From Patescibacteria group bacterium AH-259-L05 (GTDB lineage: Bacteria > Patescibacteriota > Patescibacteriia > UBA2591 > UBA6264), in assembly GCA_027717985.1 (NCBI GenBank), contig JALLOO010000002.1, forward strand, positions 71,257 through 135,245: DNA of 63,989 bases, given 5' to 3'. Numbering within the stretch: the stretch's first letter is position 1; each line of letters starts with the position of its first letter. Positions 8,077-61,390 of this stretch are shown in pieces. The position numbers were made by a program, and so were the translations under genes. A model generated the notes under the pieces. The model saw only the letters and a program-made list of their open reading frames with translations, searched no databases and was not told the DNA's origin.

Positions 8077-8146
8077 TCTATATTTTATAGGATAAGATAT
8101 AGTTTGTCAATTAACGTTATCCACAGGTCTATTTTATAGGAGAGGG
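8077..8146. promoter_or_regulatory. Candidate LexA operator pair upstream of lexA
   Basis: tctatattttataggataag and tctattttataggagagg. Confidence 0.4.
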
Positions 8147-8168
8147 TAATTTAGAAATCATTAAAACT

Positions 8169-9035
8169 ATGTTAGAGTATAACAAGAAAATGCGAGCTTT
8201 CATCTCGTCCCCTAAAGGGGGCAGGTTTTCTCGCTCGCGATATATAGAAAAGGATAAAGTATTGCTTGGCAAAACACTCACATGCCAGGAATTTGAAAAA
8301 TATAGTTTTTATGATTTTTCTCGCCCGTATCGGGCAATTGAAAAAGGAATGATGCCGCCAAAGTTAGCAAAGATTATGATTAATTTAGCCGGTGCAGGAG
8401 AAGATTCAGCCCTTTTAGATCCGTTTTGCGGCTCAGGAACAATCCTACAGCAAGCATTGCTTATGGGGTATACAAAAGTGATAGGGACAGATATAGATCA
8501 GAGAGCAGTGGACAATTCTAAAAAAAATTTACAATGGTTAGCGCCCTCCTTGTCATCCCGCATCCCTTTGTCATCCCGCACGAATGTGCGGGATGACAAA
8601 GAAGGGACGTCATCCCGAGTACAACAAGGGGTCTCATTATATAGATGTGATGCCCAAGAGTTGAGCAAGAAAATACCACAACATTCTATTGATGCAATTA
8701 TTACTGAGCCATATCTTGGCCCGCTTAAAATTGGAAATTTAAAAGCAGAAATTAAAATTTTATCAGATTTATATATTAATGCTTTTAAATCGTTTAAAAA
8801 AGTTTTAAAATCAGATGGACGAGTGGTTATTATTTTTCCCGTATTCAGTATAAAAAATAAATTACATTTTTTACCAATTTTAGATACGCTCAAAAAAATC
8901 GGTTGGCAAATACGAATGTCATTACCTCAATATTTATTAGATAATCCAGTTATTAAAACTACGAGTCGCCAGTCCATTATATATTCTCGACCAAATCAAA
9001 AGATTTTACGCGAAATTTTAATTTTTATATTATGA
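8169..9035 (+). CDS. C-terminal methyltransferase half of a TRM11-type RNA methyltransferase
   Basis: LLGKTLTCQEFEKYSFYDFSRPYRAIEKGMMPPKLAKIMINLAG, LLDPFCGSGTILQQAL, TEPYLG. Confidence 0.8.
   Translation: MLEYNKKMRAFISSPKGGRFSRSRYIEKDKVLLGKTLTCQEFEKYSFYDFSRPYRAIEKGMMPPKLAKIMINLAGAGEDSALLDPFCGSGTILQQALLMGYTKVIGTDIDQRAVDNSKKNLQWLAPSLSSRIPLSSRTNVRDDKEGTSSRVQQGVSLYRCDAQELSKKIPQHSIDAIITEPYLGPLKIGNLKAEIKILSDLYINAFKSFKKVLKSDGRVVIIFPVFSIKNKLHFLPILDTLKKIGWQIRMSLPQYLLDNPVIKTTSRQSIIYSRPNQKILREILIFIL
8548..8632. repeat. Palindromic repeat in frame within the methyltransferase
   Basis: TTTGTCATCCCGCAC-GAAT-GTGCGGGATGACAAA, encoding LSSRTNVRDDK. Confidence 0.85.
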
Positions 9036-11339: not shown

Positions 11340-11660
11340 TTTGTCATTTATTTTTTTGTCATCCCATACTTCTTTTGTTATCCTACCTTTCCTTGTCATC
11401 CTGCATTTCGTGCGGGATGACAGAAAAAAAGAGTCTCATCCATCTCCTTTTGTCATCCCACTTTTTTTGTTATTAAGGCTCGTGAAGGATCGAGGAATCC
11501 CTTAACAGGCTTTGGCAATAAAAGACTGCTATTGACCACACTATTTTTTTTGTCATTCTTTAGCCTTTTGTCATTCCGCACTTCGGAATGACAAGAAAGG
11601 AAAGTCACGAAATGACAATCCTCCCCCTGTCATTCCTTGCGAGCTATAGACGAGTAAGGA
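11340..11660. repeat. Intergenic array of degenerate TTTGTCAT(C/T)CC repeats
   Basis: Multiple copies, some with full palindromes: cttgtcatcctgcatttcgtgcgggatgacag; tgtcattccgcacttcggaatgaca. Confidence 0.7.
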
Positions 11661-38658: not shown

Positions 38659-39258
38659 TTGTCTATGTTAGCAATTAAATTTTCTCGCAAAGGCAAGAAG
38701 AACCAACCGTTTTTTCGAATTATTGTGTTAGAAAAATCCAAAGATCCATGGGGTGATTTTTTAGAAGATCTTGGCTTTTATAATCCCTTAACAAAAGAGT
38801 GCTCATTAAATGAAAAACGAATAAAGTATTGGATCTCAAATGGCGCTCAGCCAACCGGTTCAGTACATAATTTATTAGTTAATAAAGGAATTATTAAAGC
38901 TGAAAAGGTTAATGTTACGAAGAAAAGGGTTTCGAAGAAAAAAGAAACACTCAAAAAAGCTATGGATAGAAAAGAAGAAAAGAAACCAGACGAAAAAAAG
39001 GAAAAATTAAAGAAGGAGGACAAAGAGAAGGAGACCAAAGAAGAACCCGAAGAAAAGAAACCAGAAGGAAAGTCTAAGGAAGATAAAAAAGCCGCCCCCG
39101 AAGGGGGCGAGCCTCGCCCCGATGTTACATCGAGGCGGGAGGAGAAGAAAGAGGAGAAGAAAGAGGAGAAGAAAGAGGAGAAGAAAGAGGAGAAACTGCC
39201 TAAAAAAGAAGCAAAGGAGGAGAAAAAAGAAGAGGGGGGAAAAGAGGTGGAAAAGTAA
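38659..39258 (+). CDS. rpsP: 30S ribosomal protein S16 with long charged repeat tail
   Basis: MLAIKFSRKGKKNQPFFRIIVLEKSKDPWGDFLEDLGFYNPL; tail of KEE/EKK repeats. Confidence 0.92.
   Translation: MSMLAIKFSRKGKKNQPFFRIIVLEKSKDPWGDFLEDLGFYNPLTKECSLNEKRIKYWISNGAQPTGSVHNLLVNKGIIKAEKVNVTKKRVSKKKETLKKAMDRKEEKKPDEKKEKLKKEDKEKETKEEPEEKKPEGKSKEDKKAAPEGGEPRPDVTSRREEKKEEKKEEKKEEKKEEKLPKKEAKEEKKEEGGKEVEK
39135..39195 (+). repeat. 12-bp tandem repeat (gaggagaagaaa) in rpsP tail
   Basis: About 5 direct copies encoding EEKK. Confidence 0.85.
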
Positions 39259-39372: not shown

Positions 39373-39678
39373 ATGGCTGCAAAATATCAAGATCAAGAGT
39401 TTCTTGAGAATCTTATTAAAGCGCTTGTTGCTAATCCAAATGATGTGAGCGTAACACGCAACGTAGACGAAATGGGTGTTCTTCTTTCTTTGAAGATTAA
39501 CCAAGAAGATATGGGCCAAGTTATTGGTCGTCAAGGATCTACTGCACGTTCAATCAGAACATTGCTCAGGATTGTTGGATTGAGGAATAATGCCCGTGTC
39601 AATCTTAAGATTGAAGAACCTGAAGGATCGACGCGCAAGAGGCCTACTTCAAGTTCTGATGACGAATTGAAGTTATAA
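39373..39678 (+). CDS. khpA: KH-domain RNA-binding protein (KhpA-like)
   Basis: LIKALVANPNDVSVTR, LKINQEDMGQVIGRQGSTARSIRTLLR. Confidence 0.85.
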   Translation: MAAKYQDQEFLENLIKALVANPNDVSVTRNVDEMGVLLSLKINQEDMGQVIGRQGSTARSIRTLLRIVGLRNNARVNLKIEEPEGSTRKRPTSSSDDELKL

Positions 39679-39759: not shown

Positions 39760-40527
39760 ATGCAGTTTGATATCATTACTATTTTTCCTGATATATTTGA
39801 TCTTTATTTTAACACCTCAATAATTAAAAGGGCACAGGAAAAGAAATTAGTTGTCATCAAAATCCATGATCTTCGCAAATGGACTGCTGATAAGCATAAG
39901 ACTGTTGATGATCGACCGTATGGCGGGGGCCCGGGCATGATTTTAAAAGTCAGGCCGATATATGAAGGATTAAAAAAAATCAAAGCAGCTTCTCCCTTGT
40001 CATCCCGCGCTTCGCGCGGGGAGACAAAAAAAGAAGTGTCATCCCGAGCGAAGCAAGGGACAAACGTTATTTTATTGACGCCGAAAGGCAAACAGTTTGA
40101 TCAGAAGATGGCTAAAAGATTTTCAAAGTTAGATAGAGTAATTTTAGTATGTGGAAGATATGAAGGCGTTGATGAACGAGTAACAAAATTTATTGATGAA
40201 CAGATTTCAGTTGGTCCTTATGTTTTGACTGGTGGAGAGCTTCCTGCTATGATAATGATTGATACAATTACACGGTTAATTCCCGGTGTCATTAGCCCTG
40301 AATCCTTACAAGAAGAAACTTTTTCTTTCAGAAAAATCAAGAAAAATAAATTAGAAATTAAAAATTCGGAATTAGAAATTTTTCATGAGTATCCACAATA
40401 TACTCGTCCAGAAGTCTTTACATATAAAGATACATCTGGTAGAATAAAATCGTTCAAAGTGCCAAACGTTTTATTGTCAGGTAATCATAAAAAAATAAAG
40501 CAGTGGCGCGAAAAATACGTTCGTTGA
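39760..40527 (+). CDS. trmD: tRNA (guanine-N1)-methyltransferase with in-frame repeat insertion
   Basis: MQFDIITIFPDIFDLYFNTS, DDRPYGGGPGMILKV, VCGRYEGVDERV, GPYVLTGGELPAM. Confidence 0.93.
   Translation: MQFDIITIFPDIFDLYFNTSIIKRAQEKKLVVIKIHDLRKWTADKHKTVDDRPYGGGPGMILKVRPIYEGLKKIKAASPLSSRASRGETKKEVSSRAKQGTNVILLTPKGKQFDQKMAKRFSKLDRVILVCGRYEGVDERVTKFIDEQISVGPYVLTGGELPAMIMIDTITRLIPGVISPESLQEETFSFRKIKKNKLEIKNSELEIFHEYPQYTRPEVFTYKDTSGRIKSFKVPNVLLSGNHKKIKQWREKYVR
39991..40071. repeat. Palindromic repeat in frame within trmD
   Basis: cccttgtcatcccgcgcttcgcgcggggagacaaaaaaagaagtgtcatcccgagcgaagcaaggg. Confidence 0.85.
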
Positions 40528-40561: not shown

Positions 40562-41190
40562 TTTACCCTTCAAAATTTTTTTGAAATTTAGAAGGGTGAA
40601 CCAATCTATTCTTATAATTCCTAAGAGCGAATCAAATGAAAAAATTTATTTTTACATTTGTGAGCCCTGACGGAATTTCAAATTTTACTTAATATATCAA
40701 ATTCTTGTTAAGAGAGTTTGATCCTAGCTCAGGATGAACGCTGGCGGCGTGTCTAAGGCATGCAAGTCGAACGGTCCGATTCGTCGGATAGTGGCAGACG
40801 GGTGAGTAACACATTGGTAATCTACCGGAAAGTGGGGAATAACCTTGAGAAATCAGGGCTAATACCGCATGTGTTCTAATGTTGTTTACATTAGAATAAA
40901 GGCCGCAAGGTCGCTTTCTGAGGAGCCTATGGCCCATCAGGTTGTTGGTAGGGTAATGGCCTACCAAGCCAATAACGGGTAGCAGGTGTGAGAGCACGAC
41001 CTGCCTCATTGGGACTGAAACACTGCCCAATCTCCTACGGGGGACTGCAGTCAAGAATCTTCCTCAATGGCCGAAAGGCTGAAGGAGCGACGCCGCATGC
41101 AGGATGAAGCTCTTCGGAGTGTAAACTGCTTTTCTGGGAGAAGAACCTTCGGGTGACGGTACCTCAGGAATAAGCCGCCGCTAACTTCGT

Positions 41191-41573
41191 GCAAGTAATT
41201 TTTGTCTTATCAAAGAGCGCGACTTCTTCGAGTAATCGAAGTTGAAAACTCAGCTTATATGCTGGAACCCTATAAGGATTGCTGCGTTTCGCATAGAGCG
41301 AAATACCTTATGGGCAATCAGCAGGGAAGTTGTCCCGATTAGTCGGGATTAACCCCTCAGAGACTGATTCACTAAATAATATTTAGGTGAAGAGATGACA
41401 GGTACCAAATAATTTGGATTTAAACTGTTATCATACGCTGAGGGTCCTTTATAATCGAAGCGAGGGTCAAAAGAAAAATTTATTTTTCTTTTGCGCCCGA
41501 ACGAAGATTTCAAGCTTTGCTTATTTAGATAAAGGATCATGAGATAGTCCGTAATCGATATAGATCGATACAG
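41191..41573 (+). other. Group I-like intron in 16S (near E. coli 516-520), boundaries within a few nt
   Basis: Interrupts aacttcgtg/ccagcagctgcgg; Q-like aatcagcagggaag, R-like cctcagagactga, S-like atgagatagtcc. Confidence 0.75.
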
Positions 41574-41952
41574 CCAGCAGCTGCGGTAAGACGAAGGCGG
41601 CAAGCGTTATCCGGATTTACTGGGCGTAAAGGGTGCGTAGGCGGTCTGACAAGTTTCTGGTTAAAGTCCTTTGCTCAACATTGGAAATGCTGGAAAAACT
41701 GTCAGACTAGAGGCCGGGAGAGGCAAGCGGAATTGCCGGTGTAGGGGTTAAATCCGTTAATATCGGCAGGAACACCAAATGCGAAGGCAGCTTGCTAGAA
41801 CGGTTCTGACGCTGAGGCACGAAAGCGTGGGGAGTGAAGAGGATTAGATACCCTCGTAATCCACGCCGTAAACGCTGGATGCTGGACATTGGAAGTGTCG
41901 ACCCTTTCAGTGTCGCATAAAAAAGCTAACGCGTTAAGCATCCCGCCTGGGA

Positions 41953-41984
<32 letters not shown>

Positions 41985-42113
41985 AGACGGGAGTTCGCAC
42001 AAGCGGTGGACCATGTGGTTCAATTCGACGATAAGCGAAAAACCTTACCAGGGCTTGACATGCTAGAAGTACCCTGATAGAAACATCGGGGGACCGTCAA
42101 ATCGGAGTCTAGT

Positions 42114-42145
<32 letters not shown>

Positions 42146-42241
42146 GGTGACGTGTACCCTTAAGTGGGGAAACGAGCGGAACCCCTACTGCCAGTTACTA
42201 ACGGGTAAAAGCCGAGGACTCTGGCAGGACTGCCGGTGATG

Positions 42242-42273
<32 letters not shown>

Positions 42274-42468
42274 GCATGGCCCTTATGCCCTGGGCGACAC
42301 ACGTGGTACAATGGCCGGTACAAAGGGTTGCTAAGCCGTAAGGTGGAGCTAATCCCATCAAAGCCGGTCCCAGTTCGGATTGAGGTCTGAAATTCGACCT
42401 CATGAAGCTGGAATCGCTAGTAACCGTGTATCAGCACGGCACGGTGAATACGTTCTCGAACTTTGTAC

Positions 42469-43467
42469 TCGGGTGCCTTGCAGCTCTAAAAGCTAATCCG
42501 TTGAAATCGGATCAAGAAGACTATAGACTTTTTGAAGCGAAATTGCAGTCCCGACGCGCGAGTGATCGGGATGAAGGGCAAAAGTAGCATTTTCCAGCTT
42601 GAGTTTTCGTTGAGGCTTTATGTATTGACGACCCTGCGAGTACATGGGGAAGTTATCTATAGATGAAGTACATAAAGTATAGAAGACCAAGATGGAAAAG
42701 AAATGTTTCTAGAGTGACCAAGGGAGATCTCGTGAAGTCCTCGGAATTTATCTTGACATGACTTTAAAATGGTAGTAAACTAAAACCGAGGTATGAATAA
42801 AAGTAATTTTATTTCAAAAACTTCGCGAGAAGTCAGCAGAGCTCATAGTACTCATCGAAATCCTTATAAAAGAAATTTGAGACTTAAGGATCCAGTGGGG
42901 AAGGAGCAAATCCAAGGAAAAGAAGAATTAAATCCTTATTATATAATTGGCTTTATTGAAGGAGAGGGATCATTTTATGTAGGCATCGGCAGACATAAAA
43001 CACTCCGAAGAAAAATAGATATTAGACCCGCATTTACTATTGAACTTCGTGCAGATGATCGTGAGATTCTTGAGCGCATTCTTATTACAATCGGATGCGG
43101 CAAGATATATGATTGTTCATACGAGAGATATGGATGGTATCCGCATGTAAAGTATAAGATTGGAAGTACAAAGGAAATGAAAGAGTTTTTGATTCCTTTT
43201 CTAGATAGATATCCTTTGCAGGCAAAAAAGGCAGAAGTTTACGCTTTATTTCGAGAGATTGTTTTAATGGTTCGCAGAAAAGAACACCTTACTGATAAAG
43301 GATTTAAGAGAATTCAGTATTTACGTAATGAAATGCGTAAGTTCGGCAAAAAGCATAATTATAAAAGGGATTTTAATCCTTCCTTGGAAACCGCCAGGAT
43401 ACGGGAAAACCGTTCGTCCGGTGGTGTGGGACAAAAGATAAAGTAATTTACTTATTGATCCCAATAC
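42469..43467 (+). other. Intron in 16S (near E. coli 1390) encoding a LAGLIDADG protein
   Basis: Interrupts ctttgtac/gcccgtcaag; P-like aattgcagtccc and Q-like accctgcgag pair GCAG/CTGC; candidate S gtgaagtcct. Confidence 0.75.
42793..43446 (+). CDS. LAGLIDADG homing endonuclease (intron-encoded)
   Basis: NPYYIIGFIEGEGSFYVGIG...FTIELRADDREILERILITIGCGKIY. Confidence 0.88.
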   Translation: MNKSNFISKTSREVSRAHSTHRNPYKRNLRLKDPVGKEQIQGKEELNPYYIIGFIEGEGSFYVGIGRHKTLRRKIDIRPAFTIELRADDREILERILITIGCGKIYDCSYERYGWYPHVKYKIGSTKEMKEFLIPFLDRYPLQAKKAEVYALFREIVLMVRRKEHLTDKGFKRIQYLRNEMRKFGKKHNYKRDFNPSLETARIRENRSSGGVGQKIK

Positions 43468-43679
43468 TGCCCGTCAAGTCAAGGAAGCCGGTAATACCCG
43501 AAAGTCCACGTTCGTGGGAATAAGGTAGGACTGGTAACAAGGGCTAAGTCGTAACAAGGCAGCGGTAGCGGAAGCTGTCGCTGGATCACCTCATTTAGAG
43601 GACTGGCCTTTTGCCTTTATAGGCAAAAGAGCAAGGTCGACCTCCTCACTTGCAAGCAAGTGAGGAGCGAAGATTGGTC

Positions 43680-47828: not shown

Positions 47829-47834
47829 TTTTTT

Positions 47835-47985
47835 GTCATCCCCCTCTTGTCATCTCGCCCCTCTTGTCATCTCGCCCCTCTTGTCATCTCGCCCCTCTTG
47901 TCATCTCGCGCCTCTTGTCATCTCGCGCCCCCCTGTCATTCCGCACGGATGTGCGGAAAGACAAAGAAAGAGAGTGCGGAATGAC
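47835..47985. repeat. Tandem cctcttgtcatctcgcc repeats plus palindromic repeat
   Basis: About 6 tandem units of about 18 bp, then tgtcattccgcacggatgtgcggaaagaca. Confidence 0.8.
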
Positions 47986-48134
47986 AAAGAAAGGGCGCTA
48001 TTCCTCGGTTAAAAGCTGAGGAACTTTTGTTTATTTGAGGAGTTTTCCACAGGTAATTTTGACGGGGTTGACAACTTTTTTATATATATTATAGTATAAG
48101 TGTTGTTCATTTCACAAAGAGAGGAGGACATGTT

Positions 48135-50324: not shown

Positions 50325-51053
50325 ATGGTCAATCTTGACATTTTGGATAAAATCAATATACTATACGAAAGTAGGGATTTTTTAATTTTAGATAAACCAT
50401 CGGGGTTGCTCATTCATCCAACAAAACATCAAAAAACAAATACCTTAGTTGGTTGGTTAGTTAAAAAATATCCTGAAATAAAAAATGTAGGGCAAAGAGA
50501 GCGTCCAGGCATTGTTCATAGATTAGATAAAGATGTTTCTGGGTTGATGGTTGTAGCACGAACGCAGAAGATGTATGATTTTTTAGTGTTTCAGTTTAAG
50601 CAGGGAAGAGTAAAAAAAGAATATATAGCTTTAGTTCATGGAAAGCCGCCTGAAATACATGGTTTTATTGAAACGCCAATTGGGAGAACAAAAAAGGGAA
50701 AACTCGTAGCAGTTATAAGCAGAAAAAAATTAAAATTTGAAAAACCAGCATTTACGGAGTATCGCGTGATTAAAAAATATAAAGACTGTTCCCTTTTACA
50801 GGTCCGACCTGTCACGGGCAGGACCCATCAAATTAGGTTGCACCTTAAAAGCGTTGGTTGTCCAATCGTTGGAGACTCCCTCTTGTCATCCCGAGCGAGC
50901 CGCAAGGTGAGCGAGGGATCTCATATACATCCAAACCGTATTTTTTTACACGCCTCGTATTTAGGGTTTTATGATCTAGGTAAGCAATGGCAAGAATTTC
51001 AAAGCGATTTACCTCAAGAATTAAAAAACTTTTTAAGTATTTTACAAAACTAG
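50325..51053 (+). CDS. RluA/RluD-family pseudouridine synthase with in-frame repeat insertion
   Basis: DKPSGLLIHPTKH, PGIVHRLDKDVSGLMVVART, RTHQIRLHLKSVGCPIVGDSL, HASYLGF. Confidence 0.9.
   Translation: MVNLDILDKINILYESRDFLILDKPSGLLIHPTKHQKTNTLVGWLVKKYPEIKNVGQRERPGIVHRLDKDVSGLMVVARTQKMYDFLVFQFKQGRVKKEYIALVHGKPPEIHGFIETPIGRTKKGKLVAVISRKKLKFEKPAFTEYRVIKKYKDCSLLQVRPVTGRTHQIRLHLKSVGCPIVGDSLLSSRASRKVSEGSHIHPNRIFLHASYLGFYDLGKQWQEFQSDLPQELKNFLSILQN
50876..50925. repeat. Repeat related to the gtcatccc family, in frame in the pseudouridine synthase gene
   Basis: ctccctcttgtcatcccgagcgagccgcaaggtgagcgagggatctc, encoding SLLSSRASRKVSEGS. Confidence 0.7.
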
Positions 51054-60365: not shown

Positions 60366-60490
60366 GATTAGTCTCCATTATATGTATATTGAAATGATCT
60401 ATATATAACGATAATTTATTTTTTTTAGTCTGTCAAGGGGACGTGAATCTTGACGGAGCACTGCAATGCTGGTATAGTGAAGAGAGATGT

Positions 60491-61390
60491 ATGCTAGAGA
60501 TTTTCCCATATAAACTTGATACCAAGGTTCAGCTCTCTCCTGACAAATTAGGTTTAAATTTTATTCCTGAGAAGGGGAGCGTATTCAACTTTAAACCAGG
60601 TCAGTGGGTTTTTTTATATCTTTACAATACCAGCGGCTCTTTATGGGGTAAGCGGGCATTTTCAGTTTGTTCTGCGCCAACAAATAAAGTGTATATTCAG
60701 CTCGGTATTAAAGTTTCGGGTACATTTACCCGAAGAATGGCAAAAATGAAAACAGGCGAACGTGTGGGAATTTCAGGACCATATGGTTTTTTTACATTTG
60801 AGGAAAAAAAAATGAGAAATACAGTATTTCTCACAGGAGGAATCGGTATTACACCGTTTATGAGCATGATTCGCTATGCAAAAGATAAGAAATTAAAAAA
60901 TAAGCTTACGTTCATCTATAGCAACAGAGATAAAAATGACATTGCTTTTTATAAAGAATTAGAATTACTTTCACAGCAAAATAAAGATTGTAGAGTTATT
61001 TTTACGTTAACGGGTAAGATTCCAGCTTCCCCTCTGTCATCCCGCTCCCCTTTGTCATCCCGCTCCCCTTTGTCATCCCGCTCCCCTTTGTCATCCCGCT
61101 CCCCTCTGTCATCCCGCTCCCCTTTGTCATCCCGCTCCCCTCTGTCATCCCGCTCCCCTCTGTCATCCCGCGCTTCGCGCGGGAAGACAAAAAAAGAAGT
61201 GTCATCCCGTCCTTTATGGGAGGGAGAAAAAGGACGAATAAATGGAACAATGCTGAGAAAATATTGCTTTCCGTATAAGGGAAAATATTTTTTTCTCTGC
61301 GGTCCATTGCCCTTTATGGAGCGTATGGTACAATATCTTAAAAACAGCGGCGTTTCTCAAGAGCATATCAAAATAGAACGGTTTGGATAA
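60491..61390 (+). CDS. Ferredoxin/flavodoxin-NAD(P)+ reductase-like flavoprotein with tandem repeat insertion
   Basis: KPGQWVFLYL, KRAFSVCSAP, VSGTFTRRM, FLTGGIGITPFMSMIRYA, FLCGPLPFMERM. Confidence 0.88.
   Translation: MLEIFPYKLDTKVQLSPDKLGLNFIPEKGSVFNFKPGQWVFLYLYNTSGSLWGKRAFSVCSAPTNKVYIQLGIKVSGTFTRRMAKMKTGERVGISGPYGFFTFEEKKMRNTVFLTGGIGITPFMSMIRYAKDKKLKNKLTFIYSNRDKNDIAFYKELELLSQQNKDCRVIFTLTGKIPASPLSSRSPLSSRSPLSSRSPLSSRSPLSSRSPLSSRSPLSSRSPLSSRASRGKTKKEVSSRPLWEGEKGRINGTMLRKYCFPYKGKYFFLCGPLPFMERMVQYLKNSGVSQEHIKIERFG
61023..61225. repeat. 18-bp tandem array (tcccctttgtcatcccgc) plus palindrome, in frame inside reductase gene
   Basis: Eight SPLSSR units, then SSRASRGKTKKEVSSRPLWEGEKG. Confidence 0.92.

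Follow-up and report, generated by a model that had tools for sequence, protein, structure and literature searches.

The question raised by this locus is how trmD, a gene whose product is normally essential, came to carry 66 nt of GC-rich repeat DNA within its reading frame, and how the insertion is tolerated. The gene lies in a stretch of 63,989 nucleotides (G000:C12:71257-135245, referred to below as the window) from a Patescibacteria MAG of 1.03 Mb that is 77.5% complete. The most probable answer, to which we assign a probability of about 0.87, is that the insert is a copy of a genus-restricted, REP-like palindromic repeat which has recently been spreading in this genome and whose copies are filtered for reading frame and for tolerant loops. 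The observations behind this answer are the multicopy nature of the family, sites in two other genes that are empty in a sister species, a frame constraint on the units, the position of the insert in a loop and the independent use of the same loop by other repeats. Coordinates are collected in Table 1.

The first-pass annotation had reported a repeat family in frame within trmD, and both the DNA and the peptide were found as quoted. Its span, 39991-40071, covers the entire element and adds S before and TN after PLSSRASRGETKKEVSSRAKQG, the peptide that the 66 nt encode as TrmD residues 79-100. The element ends in a 6-nt terminal inverted repeat (CCCTTG/CAAGGG) and has a GC content of 59% vs 34% for the remainder of trmD. 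Its first palindromic unit, with a predicted hairpin energy of -20.9 kcal/mol, and its second unit are separated by an A-rich spacer of 10 nt. When the 66-mer was compared with the genome by BLAST 40 matches were obtained, the nearest being window positions 61156-61209 (96% identical), where the composite of hairpin plus second unit is found again, as it is at G000:C12:25748-25814 (88%).

Table 1. Features of the window, with positions counted from its first letter.
Feature	Position	Strand	Basis
trmD, tRNA (guanine-N1)-methyltransferase, bearing the insert	39760..40527	+	Pfam PF01746, E 2.4e-49; sole PF01746 gene in assembly
Entire inserted element in trmD, 66 nt = 22 codons	39994..40059	+	Sequence CCCTTGTCATCCCGCGCTTCGCGCGGGGAGACAAAAAAAGAAGTGTCATCCCGAGCGAAGCAAGGG; GC; without counterpart in order relatives
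First palindromic unit of trmD element, TGTCATCCCGCGCTTCGCGCGGGGAGACA, 29-nt hairpin	39998..40026		Sequence; 29-nt hairpin is the family's modal palindrome
Second unit of trmD element, TGTCATCCCGAGCGAAGCAAGGG, orientation as first unit	40037..40059	+	Sequence; composite recurs elsewhere
Family in frame, RlmKL-like methyltransferase ORF (8115-9032)	8551..8617		Sequence
Family, two intergenic clusters	11357..11637		Sequence
Family array just after poly(A) polymerase-like gene, seven + units and two - units	47834..47986		Sequence
Family single unit near end of pseudouridine synthase ORF (50325-51053)	50884..50923	+	Sequence
Family in frame, ferredoxin-reductase-like ORF (60443-61390)	61035..61209		Eight 18-nt units (SPLSSR repeats) + hairpin + third unit

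The gene neighbourhood is ordinary, with rpsP (38659-39258) and then khpA (39373-39678) upstream of trmD. The S16 protein encoded by rpsP has a long, Lys/Glu-rich C-terminal tail, and the GC-rich palindromic stretches GCCCCCGAAGGGGGC and CCTCGCCCCGATGTTACATCGAGGCGGG lie within this tail. Within trmD itself the interdomain linker (40345-40385) contains an AT-rich near-repeat, two copies of AATTAGAAATT at a distance of 21 nt, and the length of this linker varies among orthologues. It was considered as a second repeat insertion (KLEIKNSELEI) and dropped, as its 11-mer was met just three times in 251 kb, twice at this very place. The neighbouring 16S rRNA gene (40706-43583) appears to be interrupted close to its 3' end by an intron of group II type, with matches to domains D1-D4 at 42552-42710 and 42792-42906, a match to the group II 3' domain at 43389-43465 that is below the gathering score, and an ORF (42793-43446) for a LAGLIDADG protein in place of a reverse transcriptase; SSU 3' sequence resumes at 43466-43583. 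The whole split gene is flanked by a perfect 26-nt inverted repeat (40536-40561/43680-43705), which is probably a processing stem.

The family to which the trmD element belongs is a palindrome of the form TGTCAT[C/T]CCGC...GCGG[G/A]ATGACA. Its 10-base core, TGTCATCCCG, was counted 151 times over the 1.03 Mb (83 forward and 68 reverse), while a reversed-pattern control gave no match. The core is found 38 times in a genome of the same genus (G023) and between 0 and 8 times in each of 24 other genomes of the order. At 24 places in the genome studied (G000) the palindrome is complete (TGTCATYCCGC-N(3-12)-GCGGRATGACA), and none of 378 further genomes sampled from the phylum has it; that sample excluded G023, where there is one perfect TGTCATCCCGC palindrome.

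The architecture of the family was determined from 70 clusters, taken from stretches around repeats and RAYT genes. The modal unit, seen in 42 cases, is a 29-nt hairpin (+- start-to-start spacing of 19) with the stem-loop ATCCCGCG-CTTCG-CGCGGGAT. In 40 of the clusters half-units are arranged with + units to the left of the hairpin and - units to the right, and 13 are tandem only. At each array end a 7-nt pyrimidine tract comes first and leads into TGTCAT[C/T]CCGC, and the 3' end, GACA plus a purine tract, mirrors the 5' end. TGTC occupies positions 0-3 in 98-100% of 113 array ends, a figure to which the search seed contributes as it favours TGTC; no target-site motif was conserved among these ends beyond the pyrimidine tract. 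Unit spacing is uniform inside many arrays and differs among arrays (15-24 nt), as would be seen if slippage multiplied the units once they had inserted.

Copies in frame are found in about 21 ORFs, 18 of these with Pfam families. The hosts include AlaRS, RpoC, TsaD, a class I aminoacyl-tRNA synthetase, a GatA-like amidase, a Mur ligase, UvrC, topoisomerase I, an amino-acid kinase, a PGI-like SIS protein, a glycosyltransferase, an RlmKL-like methyltransferase, a ferredoxin-reductase-like protein and TrmD, among others. The hairpin is free of stop codons in two frames, SSR and VIP, and these are the frames used by nearly all units inside genes (about 14 vs 7 clusters, a difference that is not significant), whereas the CHP frame runs into TGA in the second arm. 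Tandem spacing is a multiple of three in 50/56 cases within genes vs 35/83 outside (Fisher, 8e-9), and when counted by cluster in 15/19 vs 12/36 (p 0.0018). The array following the poly(A) polymerase-like gene has a spacing of mostly 17 nt, which is no multiple of three. Because a cluster was counted as in-gene when an open frame ran through it, the frame statistic is biased to some extent, and part of the signal could be due to ascertainment; retention of the frame as a whole does not by itself force a multiple of three on each unit.

Filled and empty sites were compared for two genes whose G000 and G023 copies share about 90% DNA identity. In RpoC, G000 has 51 nt more, reading GDSIAILPSLSSRASRGKTKEVSSSGKKITARHSG vs the empty GDSIATIGKQKVKARHSG of G023. 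In AlaRS the excess is 330 nt (110 residues; L138:1850-2204), a 24-nt tandem array of 13 units encoding TPPLSSRA repeats, and the site is again empty in G023 (ELSQISEKQEDSEKAVR). This stretch (query residues about 279-390) is also absent from the other genomes of the order where the match spans both sides. A RodZ-like gene (L140) carries an array in both species, of different content. Together these sites show that the family moved or grew after the two species had split.

Among 101 TrmD orthologues only three places are strongly variable in length, and the insert sits at the most variable one (0-78 residues, SD 10.9), with the interdomain linker second. Loops of order relatives are short and without insert, e.g., ALRSLSKAKDKKQKIILL, and S. 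aureus TrmD (9sdv, the best PDB relative) has an alignment gap at this position. A same-genus trmD was looked for and not found, so the empty trmD site is known from other genera only. The first-pass annotation had placed the insert just before a strand, between conserved blocks, and had supposed that the peptide is tolerated in a loop. The AlphaFold model (57 sequences, mean pLDDT 87.6) agrees in that helix 64-77 and strand 101-112 are well modelled and residues 79-100, between them, form a loop of low confidence (pLDDT about 56), the strand being the one that leads into the TrmD knot; with Foldseek the top matches of the model were TrmD crystal structures. The search of the orthologues for conserved residues at the insert position, which would have spoken against a tolerated peptide, yielded none.

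The same loop has been filled independently by unrelated repeats in other lineages. In one Moranbacteria trmD (L064:3001-3765) the loop insert has nine more matches in its own genome, at 73-92% identity, and bears no likeness to the TGTC family; in a second (L080:3001-3903) it is patched together from pieces that have 44 more matches in its own genome. Further loops in L031, L034, L040 and L075 look repeat-derived by appearance. That different lineages keep different repeats in this loop favours tolerance rather than a conserved function. An alternative is nevertheless that the insert was adopted, i.e., that the peptide or the mRNA hairpin became useful in TrmD, for instance in contacts with tRNA or protein or in tuning of translation, and has been retained on this account. 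Its place a few residues before the strand into the knot, the stability of the unit hairpin and the long extensions of the pre-knot loop in several lineages are in line with this. The fillers, though, are unrelated between lineages and repeated elsewhere in their own genomes, the identical peptide is found in unrelated proteins and the predicted loop is of low confidence, which makes adoption improbable.

Still less credit can be given to the idea that this trmD is a decaying or silent copy, with the working gene in the unassembled 20-25% of the genome. The completeness of the MAG leaves room for such a gene, and a search for a second intact trmD found only the one PF01746 gene in the assembly; the frame is however intact, 28/28 invariant columns of a 57-sequence alignment are kept, the rpsP-khpA-trmD neighbourhood is ordinary and the order relatives have one full-length trmD each, where matched. 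Given the intact frame, the conservation of the invariant residues and what is generally known of TrmD, we infer that the enzyme is functional and essential here. Removal of the insert from RNA or protein, as by an intron or intein, seems the least credible reading of all: the element RNA forms a stable hairpin and a group II-type intron lies nearby in the 16S gene, but no known self-splicing core or intein is as short as 66 nt, and splicing would not need the element and the 13-unit AlaRS array to be in frame as read.

If the insert is a copy of the spreading repeat, two TGTC-tagged units, the hairpin and the second unit, would have landed in trmD as a dimer, which would have survived there because 66 nt is divisible by three, the frame used is free of stops and the site falls in a tolerant loop. 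Copies elsewhere may grow by tandem duplication of the 18-24-nt half-unit, presumably through slippage; inside genes unit lengths that are neutral for the frame are mostly retained, and harmful insertions would be purged by selection. The palindrome may be copied by a trans-acting factor such as a HUH/RAYT-type transposase, or else by template switching at a replication hairpin. A RAYT-like gene is present in the genome (C56:6772, 245 aa) together with a fragment (C3:5758). RAYT as a linked mobiliser was rejected, as none of the 22 RAYT loci in the order has a repeat directly beside it; no repeat was seen in the flanks examined of C56 in G000 and of four RAYT loci in G023, and the repeat nearest to the C3 fragment is about 1.4 kb away. 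Across the order RAYT genes are present in 7/7 genomes with at least two cores vs 5/19 others (hypergeometric p 0.0012, calculated by hand and ignoring kinship). It is tempting to speculate, as a distinctly tentative extension, that the palindrome is adapted to gene interiors by its stop-free used frames and frame-neutral units, that it is spread in trans by a HUH/RAYT enzyme without a linked repeat, and that tolerant loops of core proteins, the pre-knot loop of TrmD among them, serve as parking places common to unrelated repeat families across Patescibacteria.

The family is young enough for filled and empty sites to be compared between two congeneric species, e.g., in RpoC and AlaRS. Even very small genomes thus take mobile DNA into core proteins of translation and transcription, and the insertions provide natural maps of the tolerance of TrmD, AlaRS and RNA polymerase to extra sequence.

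Among known systems the CGTC-tagged REPs come close. The TGTC tag of the family is a reported variant of CGTC, and CGTC/TGTC-tagged REPs include RPE-4 and RPE-6 of Rickettsia conorii (Di Nocera et al., 2013; PMC3733652). Such REPs have no dedicated transposase and no known mobiliser, and intragenic REPs occur in several species (PMC3733652). The family shares with them A-T pairs at stem positions 1-2, an 8-bp stem and a 5-nt loop (criterion 8-9 bp and 4-5 nt), a high copy number, in-frame copies in genes and the lack of transposase linkage. It differs in its mirrored ends (TGTC...GACA), where theirs have a short unpaired 3' tail, mostly CCA, in its common head-to-tail arrays of half-units, where that survey found a negligible number of head-to-tail dimers and few grouped elements (PMC3733652), and in its Patescibacteria host. 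As the tag and stem-loop geometry fit and the CCA tail does not, the family is called REP-like and not filed as a member of the CGTC-tagged REPs. REPINs and RAYT-mobilised REPs (PMC3116915, PMC2817692) likewise have two inverted REP-like arms forming a hairpin, a high copy number and RAYT-family genes in the genome, whereas here the tag is TGTC and not GTAG, no RAYT is flanked by repeats and copies in genes are many. The palindromic elements of Rickettsia (RPE-1 and others; Ogata et al., 2000, 2002; reviewed in PMC10969869) are also palindromes that a reduced genome carries in frame in numerous unrelated genes; they measure about 150 bp according to that review, compared with units of 18-29 nt in variable arrays in Patescibacteria. 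A literature search for REPs and Patescibacteria together returned no report. The phenomenon is thus known in kind from the Rickettsia RPEs and from intragenic REPs, while the host, the mirrored ends, the expanding half-unit arrays, the degree to which core genes are affected, the sites shown to be empty and the convergence on one loop of TrmD are new within the literature examined.
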